43,008 bases of DNA from Candidatus Abzuiibacterium crystallinum (lineage in GTDB: Bacteria; Omnitrophota; Omnitrophia; Omnitrophales; Abzuiibacteriaceae). The translations under genes were made by a program, and so were the position numbers. Location: positions 1,355-44,362 of the forward strand of contig PCVY01000060.1 in NCBI GenBank assembly GCA_002787155.1, written 5' to 3'. This document shows, one piece after another, positions 28,279 through 35,621 of the stretch (position 1 is the stretch's first letter; the number at the start of each line of letters is the position of its first letter). Under the pieces are notes generated by a model. It ran no database searches. It saw only the letters and a program-made list of their open reading frames with translations, and was not told where the DNA came from.

Positions 28279-28307
28279 TTGACAAGTTATGTTTCACCGG
28301 TTATAAT
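28279..28307 (+). promoter_or_regulatory. Consensus sigma-70 promoter of the FG-GAP gene
   Basis: TTGACA (28279-28284), 17 bp, TATAAT (28302-28307): a full consensus. The 90 bp upstream are very A/T-rich, as in UP elements. Transcription would start near 28314. The rest of 28102-28278 holds no gene that I can support. Confidence 0.85.
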
Positions 28308-28453: not shown

Positions 28454-30100
28454 ATGAATATGGTTAAGAAAATATACGGACCAAAATTCCAATTGAGGAA
28501 CGGTTTTACAAGCTTCTTCACCGCTTGTTTAACTATTCTACTGGCTTGGCAACCTTCTCTTTATGCTCAAAATGAATCAATGCAATTCGTTATTCCCGAA
28601 ACCGAAACTTACCGAACACCAATTTCATCGGCTGTCATTGGTGATGTGAATCACGATGGCATAAAAGAAATCTTTGCTAATTCACATGACGGTAAACTTT
28701 ATGGCATTGACACCATGGGCAATCCGCTTCCCGGCTTTCCCGTCGATTTGACCGCACTGGTTCATGCGGTGGGCGGCGATATTTACGACAAACATGCCAA
28801 CATACCGGCTTTGGCCGATTTAAACGGCGACGGCATCCAAGAAATCTTGGCAACCATTCGCTACGATTATGACAACCAATTTCGTAATTATAAAGTGCGC
28901 TTATTCGCCATTCAAGCAAACGGTGCGGTGCATGACGCTTGGCCGATTGACGGTGTGGAACTTCATCATATTATCGGCGGCGGTGTTTTTCCCAGTTCTT
29001 ACAATCAAATCACGGCTGCCGATTTAGACCAAGACGGACAAGATGAAGTGATGGTGACGGGCGGCAGCTCAACGGGTTTACAAGTTTTAAAAGGCGATGG
29101 CACCGCATTCAATCAATTTTTTCCGATGCCGAATATTGCTGGAGGCTCTCCCGCCGCGGTTGGTGATATTGATCAGGACGGCAAGTTAGAAATTGTAGCC
29201 GGTGACATTGCGGATGGTTTTATCGGATTTCAAGAAGAGGCCGAAGTACATGTCATTAACCCCGAGGACGGAACTGAAGTGCCGGGCTGGCCTGTTGCGA
29301 TTCCAACTTCTAATTTCTTAGCGCCAACGGTTTCCGTCGGCGATGTCAATGGGGATGGTTCATTAGACGTGGTGGCAGCAGTCGGAACAGTTTACCCTTC
29401 CACGCCCCCTAATTATGAAACATTGGCTGTCTACGCTGCCGATGGATCGCCTCTGGCGGGATGGCCTCTCGTCAGACAAAATAACAATGATAGCTATTAT
29501 TTTTCGGGAATTGCTCTGGCGGACTTAGATCTTGACCGTAAGCTTGAAGTCATCAGCATCTTTAGAGAGGTTGTCTATGTCAATCAATTTGACGGCAGCG
29601 ATTTTCCCGGCTGGCCGCGCGTTTTTGACGATCGAAATGGTGAAGTTAACAATCAAGATCGTAATGTCACGGTTAGTGATATCGACAATGACGGATATCC
29701 CGATATCGTTTATTTAAGTAACTTAGGTCTTCTGACAGCTGTGGATCGTTTTGGCAATCCATTACCTGGTATGCCGTATGATTTTGGATTTGTGGATCCG
29801 GAAATCAGCAGAGATTATACGATCGCAACGCCTGTGATCAGCGACGTTGGGAAGGATGGCGATGTCAATTTGATCGTTACCTCTTTTTACAGAAGTGACC
29901 CCAACAACAAACATGCACAAATCAACGTGTTTGATTTTTTCGAAGGCACTGATGGCAACATCAAAGCCTCAAAAGATTGGCTTCAATTCCACAGAGATAA
30001 CCGCCACACTGGTTTATACCCTCAGAAGCGCCCCCTGCTCATTAGTACAAGCGCTGGCGCCAAAACACCTATCGCGATTTGCCGACCGGGCGAGTGCTAA
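28454..30100 (+). CDS. Secreted FG-GAP/VCBS-repeat beta-propeller protein
   Basis: A 548-residue exported protein. Signal peptide to about LYA38 (FFTACLTILLAWQPSLYA). The mature part has seven or eight repeats of about 55-65 residues, each with a calcium-type Dx[DN]xDGxx[DE] loop: DVNHDGIKE, DLNGDGIQE, DLDQDGQDE, DIDQDGKLE, DVNGDGSLD, DLDLDRKLE, DIDNDGYPD, DVGKDGDVN. They alternate with PGWPV/PGFPV strands, as in integrin-like propellers. It ends DWLQFHRDNRHTGLYPQKRP and a short Cys-containing tail. No known sorting tag is visible. Likely a cell-surface binding protein; ligand unknown. A minus-strand terminator lies right behind. Confidence 0.85.
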   Translation: MNMVKKIYGPKFQLRNGFTSFFTACLTILLAWQPSLYAQNESMQFVIPETETYRTPISSAVIGDVNHDGIKEIFANSHDGKLYGIDTMGNPLPGFPVDLTALVHAVGGDIYDKHANIPALADLNGDGIQEILATIRYDYDNQFRNYKVRLFAIQANGAVHDAWPIDGVELHHIIGGGVFPSSYNQITAADLDQDGQDEVMVTGGSSTGLQVLKGDGTAFNQFFPMPNIAGGSPAAVGDIDQDGKLEIVAGDIADGFIGFQEEAEVHVINPEDGTEVPGWPVAIPTSNFLAPTVSVGDVNGDGSLDVVAAVGTVYPSTPPNYETLAVYAADGSPLAGWPLVRQNNNDSYYFSGIALADLDLDRKLEVISIFREVVYVNQFDGSDFPGWPRVFDDRNGEVNNQDRNVTVSDIDNDGYPDIVYLSNLGLLTAVDRFGNPLPGMPYDFGFVDPEISRDYTIATPVISDVGKDGDVNLIVTSFYRSDPNNKHAQINVFDFFEGTDGNIKASKDWLQFHRDNRHTGLYPQKRPLLISTSAGAKTPIAICRPGEC

Positions 30101-30174: not shown

Positions 30175-33100
30175 TTAGGAACAACCGATGCTGTTACCGC
30201 AATTCAAGCACTTATAGCAAGCCCCGTTACGAACCGTCACATGACCGCATGAATTACAAATAGGCGCATCACCCATCAGGGAAGCCAAGTGATCGCTTAA
30301 CGCGGCGCTTGTCTTGGTTTCGGCTTTCGCAGCCGTTGCCGCCACCGGCGCTTCAGAGATTGCCTTTGCTGTGACTGCCGCAGGCTTGGCGGCCGCTGTA
30401 GCAGCTGATTTTGGCTTCGCAGGTTTCATGTCATCATCAATCGGCTTGTGAATAAAATCTGTTCTGCCCAGGTATTCCATTCCCAAAACACGAAAAACAT
30501 AATCAATGACAGAGGTGGCATATTTAATATTAGGATGGTCAACCGGTCCTTGGGGCTCAAAGCGGGTAAAAGTAAACACATCCACAAATTCTTTTAAAGG
30601 CACCCCGTGTTGCAGTCCTAGTGATACCGCGATGGCAAAGCAATTCATCAAACTGCGGAAAGCAGCGCCTTCTTTGTGCATATCAATGAAAATCTCGCCC
30701 AATGAGTTATCTTCATATTCACCGGTTCTCAAATAAATTTTATGGCCCGAAACACGGGCTTCTTGCGTGAAACCGGAACGTTTACGCGGGAGACGCCTTC
30801 TCAGCGGCTGTTGGACAGAAGCGGTTTCTTCTTTGGCTGCTTTTTCCTCACCCGTACTGCTGGAATCTTTCGAACTGGTATTAAGCGGCTGAGACGCCTT
30901 GCAGCCATCCCGATAAAGAGCGACTGCTTTTAACCCCAGCTTCCATCCCTCAACATATAAATTCTTAACGTCTTCAACCGTTGATTCGTTGGGAATATTG
31001 ACTGTTTTGGAAATAGCGCCCGAAATAAAAGGCTGGGCTGCCGCCATCATATGAATGTGCGCCATGGGTAGAATAAAACGTTTTCCGGTTTTACCGCACT
31101 TGTTGGCGCAGTCAAATACCGGCAGATGTTCCGGTTTTAAATGCGGCGCGCCTTCCACCGTCATAGAACCGCAAATAAGAGTACTGGCTTCTTCAATTTC
31201 AGCTTTTGAGAAACCCAGTTCTTTCAATACGTTAAATCCGGGTGCTTTGTATTGTTCTTCTTTGAAGCCGAGGCGTTTCAAGGCTTCTTCGCCTAGGATC
31301 CAGCTGCCAAAAGCTTGTTCTAGTTCAAATGCGCTCGGTAAAGCCCCTTCGATTTTAAGCAAGTCATCGCTCGTAAAACCTTTTTCATGGAGTGAATTCT
31401 CATTGATCCAGGGGGCCCCTTTAAATGAATTGGTCCCGGCGACAAATTCGATGATCTCTTGAATCTCACCGTCGGAGTAGCCAAGATTTTTGAGCGCACG
31501 CGGAACCGATTGATTGACAATTTTAAAATAACCGCCGCCGGCTAACTTCTTGAATTTAATCAAAGCAAAATCAGGCTCAATCCCTGTCGTGTCGCAATCC
31601 ATTAAAAGACCGATTGTGCCGGTGGGCGCAATCACGGTGCTTTGTGCGTTACGATACCCGTAACTTTTTCCGAAAGCGACTGCCTCGTTCCAATCTTCCT
31701 GTGCGGCGTTTAAAAGATCGCTTGGGCAGGCTTCTTTATTAATTTGATAAGAAGCGTCGCGATGCATTTCCATCACTTGGATCATGGGCTCACGATTCTT
31801 CGGATAACCCGGAAAAGCGCCTTTTGATTGCGCAATCTCCGCTGAAACGCGATAGGCATGGCCTGTGAGAATAGCTGTGAGAGCTCCGCAAATCGCAAAC
31901 CCGGCTGCACTGTCATACGGAATGCCTTGCACCATGAGCAGCGTGCCCAAATTCGCATAACCCAAACCCAGCGGTCTGTAATCATGACTATTCAAAGCGA
32001 TTTCTTGGGTGGGATAAGATGCAAAGTCCACCAATATTTCTTGCGCAACAATAAAAACACGAATCGCATGCCGGTAAGCCTCAATATCAAAACTGCCGTC
32101 CGGTCCCAACAGTTTCATTAAATTAATGGAAGCCAGATTGCAGGCGCTGTTATCTAAAAACATATATTCAGAACACGGATTGGAAGCATAAATCTTATCC
32201 GTCCCTTTACAGGTATGCCAACGATTAATCGTCGTATCAAACTGAATACCGGGATCAGCGCATTCCCAAGCCGCTTGGCTAATTTGATCAAAAAGAGTGT
32301 TCGCATCGTAAGTATCACACACCTCACCGGTTGTGCGCATACGAGTCTGCCATTGACTGCCGCTTAAAGCGGCCTCCATAAACTGATCACTCACGCGTAT
32401 GGAATTATTGGAATTCTGACCTGAAACCGTCCGGTAAGCTTCTCCGTTAAAATCAGACGGGTAACCGGCTGCAATTAAAGCGCGTACTTTGCGCTCTTCT
32501 TTGACTTTCCAGTTAATGAAATCAACGATTTCAGGATGATCCATATCCAAACAAACCATTTTGGCAGCGCGCCGCGTGGTTCCGCCGGATTTGGTAGCGC
32601 CAGCGCCGCGATCTAAGACTTCCAGAAAAGACATCAACCCCGAAGAGGTGCCGCCTCCGGAAAGTTTTTCTTGGCGTCCGCGCAAACGTGAGAAATTAGT
32701 TCCGGTTCCCGAACCATATTTAAAAAGACGCGCTTCGGATTTAACTAAATCAAAAATAGACATAAGGTCGTCATTGACGGCTTGAATAAAACAAGCGGAA
32801 CATTGCGGATGCGAATAAGCATTTTCTTTTAGTTCAATTTGATCTGTTTCGGGATTCCAATACCAATTGCCGCCGCTGCCTTCAATACCATATTCGTGAA
32901 AGAGACCGCAATTGAACCAAACGGGGGAATTGAAAGCAACGCGTTGTGTCACTAATAAATAAGTGAGTTCCATTTCAAAAGCTTCGGCATCTTCTGCGCT
33001 TGCAAAATAACCGCCCAATGCTTCACCGGCACGTCTAATGCTGCGCGCAATTCGGGTAACGACTTGTTTGACGCTTGTTTCATTGCCTGCGCCTGGCACA

Positions 33101-33420
33101 CCGGCTTTACGAAAATATTTTGAGACGACAATGTCTGTGGCAAGTTGTGACCACGATTTAGGCACTTCTACATCGTCCATTTTGAAAACAACGGAACCAT
33201 CCGGATTGGTAATGGCGGTAGAACGGCGGGTCCATTCGATTTGATCAAAAGGATGGGCGCCGGGTTGTGTATGAAAACGTGGGAGACGAATGCCCTTGTC
33301 TGTTCCCGAGGGGTGGGAATGACGAGCGCTTAAACGATCATGAACAGGGCCGGCTGCTTCATTGCCTGATAAACTTCTTTTCTTGATCGCTTGCTTTGGT
33401 TTGTGCAGCTTTGTATTCAT
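30175..33420 (-). CDS. nrdJ: Adenosylcobalamin-dependent (class II) ribonucleotide reductase
   Basis: A 1081-residue enzyme making deoxyribonucleotides with coenzyme B12, so it works with or without oxygen. Seen: [70 protein letters not shown], the NPCSE catalytic loop (with Cys and Glu), and [25 protein letters not shown], with the long C-terminal half of vitamin-B12 NrdJ (two copies of a DUF-like [23 protein letters not shown] region). A C-terminal zinc ribbon [21 protein letters not shown] supplies redox cysteines. GAGGGGG is 8 nt before the ATG at 33420; the longer reading starts 8 codons upstream. The Ala/Pro-rich stretch before the zinc end is a linker. Confidence 0.96.
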
Positions 33421-33487
33421 GTGGTGTGCCCCCTCTTTTGGCATATCGTTGATATTGCTATCTTGTATCTTTGAATATGGTTATTAA

Positions 33488-33592
33488 TGCCGTCAGACAA
33501 TTGAAATTAGCCGTTCGGCAGGCTCATTAGGGCTGTCCCAAGACCGCTCCAGCGGCACTTTCACAGCCGCTAATATCATTTGTCTAACGGTA
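33488..33592. repeat. 105-bp element with 13-bp inverted termini, copy B
   Basis: Ends TGCCGTCAGACAA and TTGTCTAACGGTA; same length as copy A and oriented opposite to it. Its interior is itself a long imperfect hairpin (ATTAGC...GCTAAT). It lies in the nrdJ leader, between the promoter with NrdR-type boxes and the start codon, so it will be transcribed. Confidence 0.65.
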
Positions 33593-33641
33593 CTAACACA
33601 TTTATTTCAAAAAGCTGCCGATCTTCTCTTTAGTTGCTATA

Positions 33642-33690
33642 TAGCACATATAGTACCTGATGATTCCATGCTACCCAACATCTAGTGCTA
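33642..33690 (-). promoter_or_regulatory. nrdJ promoter with paired NrdR-type boxes
   Basis: Two box-like sites on the minus strand, GCACTAGATGTTGGG (33674-33688) and GTACTATATGTGCTA (33642-33656), share ACTA[GT]ATGT and start 32 bp apart, three helical turns. They resemble the NrdR 16-mer (ACACTATATNTAGTGT-like), which is always paired at 31-32 bp. A promoter TTGGGT (33673-33678), 17 bp, TACTAT (33650-33655) overlaps both boxes, so repressor binding would block polymerase. Confidence 0.6.
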
Positions 33691-33815: not shown

Positions 33816-34021
33816 AAAAAAAAATAGAGACAAAAAAGGACGGGACCGGTTCCTTTTTTCAAGGAACCAATCCTGCCCTGGTCATTTCGTCTCTGTGCAA
33901 TCTGACAACATTGAAAATGAAAACTTTTTTTCCCGCTTGATTTATCTCAACCGCTGAATTCAAAAACTTTTTTGCTTTTGATCTTCTTTTCACGGTTCGT
34001 CAAAGAACAACTTTTCACAAC
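33816..34021 (-). ncRNA. Candidate small RNA between mnmE and nrdJ
   Basis: About 205 nt bounded by a consensus promoter (34028-34056) and a strong intrinsic terminator. The terminator is a 69-nt hairpin with three stacked stems: AGAGAC/GTCTCT (33826-33831 with 33889-33894), AGGACGGGA/TCCTGCCCT (33837-33845 with 33871-33879, one mismatch, one G-U) and GGTTCCTT/AAGGAACC (33848-33855 with 33861-33868). Nine U follow (33816-33824). The 5' part is A/T-rich with a direct repeat of GTGAAAAG. No ORF with a ribosome site was found; the only frame, nine codons, ends in the terminator. It matches no RNA family I can name. Confidence 0.55.
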
Positions 34022-34027
34022 GACCAA

Positions 34028-34056
34028 ATTTTATGTGAGAAAAATTTTTGTGTCAA
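34028..34056 (-). promoter_or_regulatory. Promoter of the candidate small RNA
   Basis: TTGACA (34051-34056), 17 bp, TAAAAT (34028-34033). It lies about 120 bp downstream of the mnmE stop and more than 600 bp before nrdJ. Confidence 0.7.
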
Positions 34057-34178
34057 ACAAAAAATAAAAAATCTTTTCCCGCATGAACTCAAATTTGAAA
34101 AAATGGTAATGTTTCGTCCTAAAAATGCTTTCCGAGAGCCCAAAGGTCCTTCTCCGGCGCTCGCATAGGGCCCATGGC

Positions 34179-35621
34179 TCACTTCCCGATACAAAACTCG
34201 CTAAAAATCACATCCAGCAGATCTTCACTATAGATTTCACCCACAATCTCTTTCAGCGCATCAAGTGCGCATTTGAGATCAAACGTCACCAGCTCGAGAG
34301 ATGCTTGATTTTGAAATGCCGCACGGCTCTTCACGAGAGAATCAAGCGCCTGCTCTAAAGCGCGCTTGTGGCGTAACCGTGTCACCAAAGTGCTTTCTCT
34401 CTCCATTTTCCCTTGCCAGACGGACTTTATTAGAACTTTTTCTAACTCTTCAATACCTAACCTCGATTTTGCCGAAACAAAACAGCAAGGCCCGGGCTGA
34501 TTTATTTGATCGAACCCGGAAACCAGCCGGGAACAAACTGACCGGGCCTCTGAAAACTTCCCTGCTTTGACTTCTGCTGCCAAAGGCTCTATTTGATCAA
34601 TTTTGTTCACCAAAATCACAAATGGCTTCCCCTTGAGGTCATTTAAAATCGCGAGGTCATCCGCTTGAATGCCTTTTTGACCATCTACCATATATATAAA
34701 TAGGTCACCCTCTTCTAAATATTGCCGGGTGCGGGCCATGCTGGCCTTGGCCAAGGGGTCGTGACTACGATAAAGACCGGCCGTATCCACCAACCTGAAG
34801 GCAATCCCTTCTAAAGTGATCATTTCTTCCAAGGTATCCCGAGTTGTCCCGGGAATGTCAGAAACCAAGGCACGCTCTCTTTCTAAGAAAGCATTCAGAA
34901 GAGAAGATTTTCCCACATTCGGACATCCGATGATGACGGTTAAAATACCTTCCCGCAAAGCCCCGCCTTTTGAAAAGCTGTCCAATAATTTCTTGACGTG
35001 CTGACAGGCGCTGTCAAATCGATTATGAAATTCTCCGTTTGAATAAATCTCTAAATGTTCATCAGGAAAATCCAGATAAGCTTCCATGTGCGCATAAATT
35101 TTCATGAGTTCATCTTTAATTTGGTGAACTTCTTTGGAAACCGAGCCGTGCAATTGACTAACAGCTGCTTTTAATGCTAAGTCCGATTTAGCGCGGATGG
35201 TATCGAGAACTGCTTCGGCCTGAACCAAATCAATACGCCCATTTAAGAAAGCACGTTTTGTAAACTCGCCGGGTTCTGCCATGCGCGCGCCCAAATGCAG
35301 CGCATGATCCATCACTTGACGAACGGCTACCAAACCGCCGTGCGCGTGTAATTCCACCACGTCTTCTTTCGTGTAAGAATGCGGTGAAGCAAAGACAACC
35401 GCGAGCACTTCATCAATCGCGTCCTGACGGCAGTCAATAACGGTTCCGAAATAAAAACGGTGGCTCTCGGCATTCTTTAGTTGAAAATTTTTCTTTTTTG
35501 CACGGAATAGTTGATCAGCAATGGCAATGGCTTTCTCGCCGCTCAAGCGCACAATACCGATGCCGCCTTCGCCAACTGGCGTGGCCACCGCTACAATGGT
35601 TTCTTCATTTTCTGGTTTCAT
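34179..35621 (-). CDS. mnmE: tRNA U34 modification GTPase MnmE
   Basis: A 480-residue GTPase that with MnmG installs cmnm5 on tRNA wobble uridines, using methylene-tetrahydrofolate as one-carbon source. N-terminal folate domain (IVAVATPVGEGGIGIVRLSG, EPGEFTKRAFLNGRIDLVQAEAV), G-domain inserted in the helical domain: GCPNVGKSS (232-240), PGTTRD, DTAG (from 279), NKID (339-342), and the invariant C-terminal CIGK. Normal length. It overlaps folC by 4 bp. Confidence 0.98.
   Translation of the reverse strand: MKPENEETIVAVATPVGEGGIGIVRLSGEKAIAIADQLFRAKKKNFQLKNAESHRFYFGTVIDCRQDAIDEVLAVVFASPHSYTKEDVVELHAHGGLVAVRQVMDHALHLGARMAEPGEFTKRAFLNGRIDLVQAEAVLDTIRAKSDLALKAAVSQLHGSVSKEVHQIKDELMKIYAHMEAYLDFPDEHLEIYSNGEFHNRFDSACQHVKKLLDSFSKGGALREGILTVIIGCPNVGKSSLLNAFLERERALVSDIPGTTRDTLEEMITLEGIAFRLVDTAGLYRSHDPLAKASMARTRQYLEEGDLFIYMVDGQKGIQADDLAILNDLKGKPFVILVNKIDQIEPLAAEVKAGKFSEARSVCSRLVSGFDQINQPGPCCFVSAKSRLGIEELEKVLIKSVWQGKMERESTLVTRLRHKRALEQALDSLVKSRAAFQNQASLELVTFDLKCALDALKEIVGEIYSEDLLDVIFSEFCIGK

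Follow-up and report, generated by a model that had tools for sequence, protein, structure and literature searches.

We found that a predicted noncoding transcription unit on the minus strand between mnmE and nrdJ of Candidatus Abzuiibacterium crystallinum (phylum Omnitrophota) recurs across its order directly upstream of nrdJ, the gene for a class II ribonucleotide reductase, and that its promoter survives in relatives where its terminator is absent. Because of this recurrence and retention, the unit, which a first-pass annotation had presented as an orphan small RNA gene, is more likely part of the nrdJ control region, and it goes with nrdJ, not with mnmE. Our fuller reading, in which we have about even confidence, is that it represents a distal, rRNA-operon-style, NrdR-independent promoter followed by an untranslated leader that carries a boxA element.

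Layout of the transcription unit

The window analyzed is a stretch of 43,008 nucleotides of contig PCVY01000060.1, and all positions refer to it (Table 1). A TTGACA-17-TAAAAT promoter (P1), about 205 nt of A/T-rich sequence without a credible open reading frame (ORF), and a 69-nt three-stem hairpin followed by nine U had been described from the sequence, and each was present. Conservation strongly supports the description of these parts as a self-contained noncoding unit of promoter, untranslated body and terminator. The boxA element and the order-wide conservation of the unit beside nrdJ are additions of the present analysis.

Table 1. Features of the mnmE-nrdJ region, with positions in the window.
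Feature	Position	Strand	Remarks
mnmE, upstream neighbor	34179..35621	(-)	
Upstream A/T-rich tract, UP-element-like	34058..34078	(-)	From sequence, before the -35; P1 of relatives has similar tracts
Promoter P1, TTGACA-17-TAAAAT	34028..34056	(-)	-35 at 34056-34051, -10 at 34033-34028, spacer 17 nt
Predicted untranslated RNA, ~205 nt, A/T-rich	33816..34021	(-)	Start site inferred from the -10
boxA, GTTCTTTGAC	33999..34008	(-)	~20 nt past the -10
Terminator hairpin, 69 nt	33826..33894	(-)	Outer stem AGAGAC..GTCTCT, middle stem and 13-bp inner stem
T9 tract	33816..33824	(-)	Preceded by the full hairpin and a single A; the outer stem encloses a T6 tract as well
NrdR box 1, GCACTAGATGTTGG	33675..33688	(-)	From sequence; kept at this place in relatives
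Probable proximal nrdJ promoter P2, TTGGGT-17-TACTAT, weak	33650..33678	(-)	Inferred by sequence inspection; NrdR boxes overlap it
NrdR box 2, GTACTATATGTGCT	33643..33656	(-)	32 bp from box 1
nrdJ, class II ribonucleotide reductase	30175..33420	(-)	Start re-called from 33444 (ORF list) by ribosome-binding site and comparison with G001

P1 ranked as the second-best promoter-like site within 19.5 kb. Elsewhere in the window, a perfect TTGACA-17-TATAAT promoter-like site (28279-28307, plus strand) lies upstream of an ORF for an FG-GAP-like protein at 28454. The whole RNA was predicted to fold with -68.7 kcal/mol (z = -5.6 relative to shuffled sequences), a value owed mostly to the hairpin, as the body alone gave z = -1.5. 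The unit sequence occurs once in its own genome. ORFs in the unit and in the P1 leaders of relatives were no longer than those in shuffled sequences and were not conserved between genomes; frames of 57-83 amino acids in G029, G027, and G041 looked suggestive but were mutually unlike.

Searches against Rfam at gathering and relaxed thresholds matched the unit to no family, the relaxed-threshold matches being attributable to chance, in agreement with the earlier view that the RNA belongs to no nameable family and contains no 6S, tmRNA, or B12 box. The cobalamin riboswitch (RF00174) gave no match. Like 6S RNA (RF00013), the unit would specify a noncoding RNA of about 200 nt with its own promoter and terminator, but it has neither the 6S consensus fold nor a 6S score in Rfam, and true 6S RNA is encoded at another locus in three unit-bearing genomes (G018 and G044, as well as G037 with a score under the cut-off). 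Neither the conserved fold nor the conserved ORF of a terminator/antiterminator riboswitch or attenuator was found, and fold inspection revealed no apparent competing antiterminator structure in the window RNA.

Conservation and linkage to nrdJ

The mnmE and nrdJ loci were taken from 47 genomes of the order, many of them incomplete metagenome-assembled genomes (MAGs); the closest named relatives of the nrdJ product likewise come mostly from Omnitrophota MAGs. A near-perfect P1, defined as no more than one mismatch to TTGACA-16/17-TA(A/G/T)AAT upstream of nrdJ, was present in 26 of 28 genomes with a close nrdJ compared to 1.4% of shuffled upstream sequences, and a P1 without mismatches in 14/28 compared to 0.0%. 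The boxA core GTTCTTT followed P1 within 55 nt in 16 of these 28 upstream regions (shuffled mean 0.43, maximum 4); some lineages (genus g11, G045, G046, and G033) have lost boxA. The sole other member of the family has an 80%-identical stretch over promoter and boxA at the same place, followed by a terminator. Upstream of nrdJ in two relatives (L159 in G042 and L155 in G017), an insertion of ~95 nt with inverted-repeat ends TATCCTTGTC / GACAAGGAT splits P1 at its -10 element, for which it appears to bring a substitute.

Across the 47 genomes (about 95 Mb), the strict pattern of P1 plus boxA was found at 15 nrdJ loci, at a single 16S operon (G032), and at a single SAM riboswitch leader, with 0 matches to the reversed control, and its occurrence relative to nrdJ presence gave a Fisher p of 6e-5. 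Among 337 genomes of the phylum outside the order, 20 strict matches were detected, none of them at nrdJ, and the nrdJ unit is thus specific to the order as far as sampled. Several of these 20 sit just before tRNA genes, and the pattern therefore tends to be a marker of RNA units that are not translated. In Ca. A. crystallinum itself, a SAM riboswitch leader that precedes a threonine-synthase-like gene (L185, G000:C12:5378-5427) likewise opens with TTGACA-17-TAAAAT plus a boxA-like GTTCTTT. A 26-nt DNA match in G037, away from nrdJ and chance-like, was discarded, as were boxA-like pattern matches in G022 and elsewhere in G037, which are not nrdJ loci.

The two neighbors of the unit could be told apart where their synteny is broken. 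Other genes lie between mnmE and the unit in G043, G021, and G004, and in the first two of these the whole unit, terminator included, is still with nrdJ despite the gene inserted after mnmE. When mnmE is encoded elsewhere, as in G040 (with boxA) and G033 (without boxA), the promoter is still found at nrdJ. No gene was seen between unit and nrdJ in the genomes of the order compared, and the 11 genomes without a close nrdJ have nothing unit-like after mnmE. In G032 the unit is present and the contig ends before nrdJ could appear.

The boxA element

The 10-mer GTTCTTTGAC recurs, identical over 10 nt, in the 23S rRNA leader of the same genome, and its 16S leader contains GTTCTTT. Among those 12 16S leaders from the order that had a recognizable start, 10 contain this heptamer. 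Given that the element is shared with these leaders, these bacteria very probably use the GTTCTTT-type element as their boxA. A nusB gene is also present (TIGR01951 match above cut-off); this and the match to the rRNA leaders are two features of boxA-bearing (Nus-factor) transcripts.

The comparison to rRNA operon leaders, in which boxA serves NusB-S10 antitermination and the rRNA folding complex, reveals both likeness and difference. Common to both are the boxA core of the same genomes, a strong TTGACA/TA[AG]AAT promoter, and untranslated RNA. In contrast, the nrdJ unit has no rRNA behind it, has its boxA ~20 nt past the -10, stops at an intrinsic terminator after ~200 nt, and precedes nrdJ, while real rRNA leaders carry boxA about 55-170 nt ahead of 16S and mostly distant from the promoter. 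Regulation by boxA outside rRNA has been described for suhB, rpsJ, prsA, and others (Baniulyte et al., 2017; PMC5725501), and these resemble the nrdJ unit in having a non-rRNA boxA, conserved in related species, upstream of a protein gene. In suhB, a boxA near the start codon represses translation and leads to Rho termination (PMC5725501), whereas the boxA described here lies several hundred nt from nrdJ, behind a promoter of its own, and an intrinsic terminator intervenes. The text of that study does not name nrdJ among the recurring gene functions, and its search omitted noncoding RNAs and other phyla. Our search of open-licence papers returned none linking boxA to ribonucleotide reductase.

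The proximal side of nrdJ

Between the unit and nrdJ lie paired NrdR boxes, and their 32-bp spacing fits the about three helix turns known for such pairs (PMC9110341). The boxes are conserved, and nrdR is present in the same genome and in 43 of 46 genomes, which together indicate that the proximal nrdJ promoter is probably NrdR-controlled. The arrangement thus corresponds to that of NrdR-controlled nrd promoters, with two boxes just upstream of nrdJ (PMC9110341), whereas the P1/boxA unit is further upstream and overlaps no NrdR box. The segment between boxes and gene holds a palindromic MITE-like repeat (33485-33600; ends CCGTTAGACAA / TTGTCTGACGG; fold -47.6 kcal/mol), of which the genome has five more nearly full-length copies (72-86% identity) as well as partial matches. 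The nrdJ upstream regions of relatives (L155 and L158-L161 among them) contain a conserved, short inverted repeat similar to TTTAAAAAGTTT, which comes after NrdR box 2 and shortly before the nrdJ ribosome-binding site.

The loci L053, L057, L058, and L066, from another Omnitrophota lineage, have an NrdR-type promoter and, directly behind it, a leader in which an intrinsic terminator stands about 20-100 nt ahead of the start of nrdJ. L058 and L066 have no space for a second promoter. The terminator is conserved in position and in an outer CGGA..TCCG stem, with a varied inner stem; it had no match in Rfam and represents a candidate nrdJ attenuator. Given this second case, leader termination before nrdJ seems to recur in the phylum.

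RNA body and terminator in relatives

A terminator follows P1 in 14 genomes, 159-194 nt past the -10 in 13 of them and 263 nt in G016, with strengths of -13 to -28 kcal/mol. Those of G018, G009, and G002 were missed by the automatic scan and placed by eye, and for G032 the position was taken from that genome's sequence itself. A simple scan of the remaining genomes detected no terminator between P1 and nrdJ. On the NrdJ tree, in which only some forks are well supported, the terminator state switches about 6-7 times while P1 is kept, and such turnover around a constant P1 is what would be expected if P1 serves nrdJ.

Conservation in relatives extended to promoter, boxA, and placement next to nrdJ, and did not extend to the sequence or structure of the RNA body. 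Beyond one genus that shares a stretch, bodies did not align (mean pairwise z = 0.5), and across genomes they folded no better than shuffled sequences (mean z = 0.06). Given these results, the lack of a conserved ORF, and the presence of 6S RNA elsewhere, a structured RNA family, 6S RNA, a riboswitch, and a small-protein gene are all disfavored. Complementarity between the 3' tail and the body was weak (combined p 0.02 and 0.004) and inconstant in position, and we therefore do not claim it as conserved. Of the hallmarks of stand-alone bacterial small RNAs, the unit has its own promoter and terminator and no ORF, and has no conserved body or seed.

Alternative explanations

The main rival to the nrdJ leader reading is a true small RNA gene, from which a boxA-tagged RNA of ~200 nt would be freed at the terminator and act in trans by base pairing or NusB-S10 binding, perhaps tuning nrdJ or ribosome synthesis. 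We regard this as possible, if rather unlikely. It would account for the 14 genomes with a full unit, strong promoter and terminator included, and for an RNA length that is kept despite sequence drift, and several matches to the same pattern elsewhere do mark stable RNA genes. Furthermore, the terminator lies about 140 nt ahead of the NrdR promoter, and P1 there should therefore mostly give a discrete RNA. Such a gene is harder to reconcile with a body unconserved beyond one genus and structured no better than shuffles, with the retention of P1 in lineages that have no terminator, and with the strict association with nrdJ. Conversely, some of our observations weigh against a control unit for nrdJ: the linkage could be one of neighborhood only, the terminators are strong with no competing antiterminator fold seen in the window, boxA is lost in some lineages, and the near-constant RNA length better fits a discrete product than a mere leader.

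We also considered whether the hairpin is mainly the terminator of the mnmE operon, which was the refutation proposed in the first-pass annotation, and the promoter an ordinary upstream one, with no dedicated RNA function. On that strand, the segment from mnmE to the hairpin showed no further terminator, mnmE-nrdJ synteny is common in the order, and the hairpin may also stop mnmE transcripts. This explanation is nonetheless improbable, given that the promoter sits between mnmE and the hairpin, that the unit accompanies nrdJ where mnmE is separated from it or encoded elsewhere and does not follow the mnmE of nrdJ-less genomes, and that the conservation of boxA would be left unexplained. The rRNA-type promoter and boxA could instead be remnants of a degraded operon, left with a terminator after loss of the rRNA genes, and this we judge very improbable: a decaying remnant would not stay conserved, and here a near-perfect promoter and boxA are kept over several families beside the same gene, in a layout unlike that of real rRNA leaders. 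We give still less credence to the idea that the RNA is a diverged representative of some structured family already known (6S RNA, cobalamin riboswitch, tmRNA, or SRP RNA), which the size of about 200 nt and the position ahead of a B12-dependent enzyme gene might recall, since Rfam gave no match at either threshold, 6S RNA has its own locus in three unit-bearing genomes, and the body is unstructured.

Proposed role in nrdJ control

The comparison of genomes shows the layout itself: a strong, A/T-boosted P1, a boxA, an untranslated and unconserved RNA segment of about 140 nt, and an intrinsic terminator in most lineages, all upstream of the NrdR boxes and nrdJ. In the nrdJ leader reading, the boxA would put NusB-S10 on the polymerase, which could then traverse the untranslated segment without being terminated by Rho, by analogy with what has been proposed for rRNA. 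In Ca. A. crystallinum, most polymerases would end at the hairpin and release the ~205-nt RNA, and a leaking fraction would continue into nrdJ, as would all polymerases in lineages lacking the terminator. The outcome would be nrdJ mRNA supplied in step with growth and independently of NrdR, in addition to that from the proximal promoter under dATP/NrdR control. In E. coli, Nus factors without phage N counter mainly Rho, and read-through at the intrinsic terminator is therefore an assumption of this scheme. We also entertain, as a doubtful extension, that the boxA-tagged RNA couples ribosome synthesis capacity, through NusB-S10 availability, to dNTP synthesis, either via read-through into nrdJ or as free RNA.

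Elements of the boxA type have been described in rRNA and in a small number of genes, many with ties to translation. An rRNA-style start, with promoter and boxA, before nrdJ hints that ribosome production and the supply of DNA precursors may be connected. If the nrdJ leader reading is true, DNA-precursor supply would share elongation control with ribosomes across an order, and the unit would be a concrete and conserved example of nrd regulation that goes beyond NrdR, in a phylum for which hardly any regulatory biology is available.
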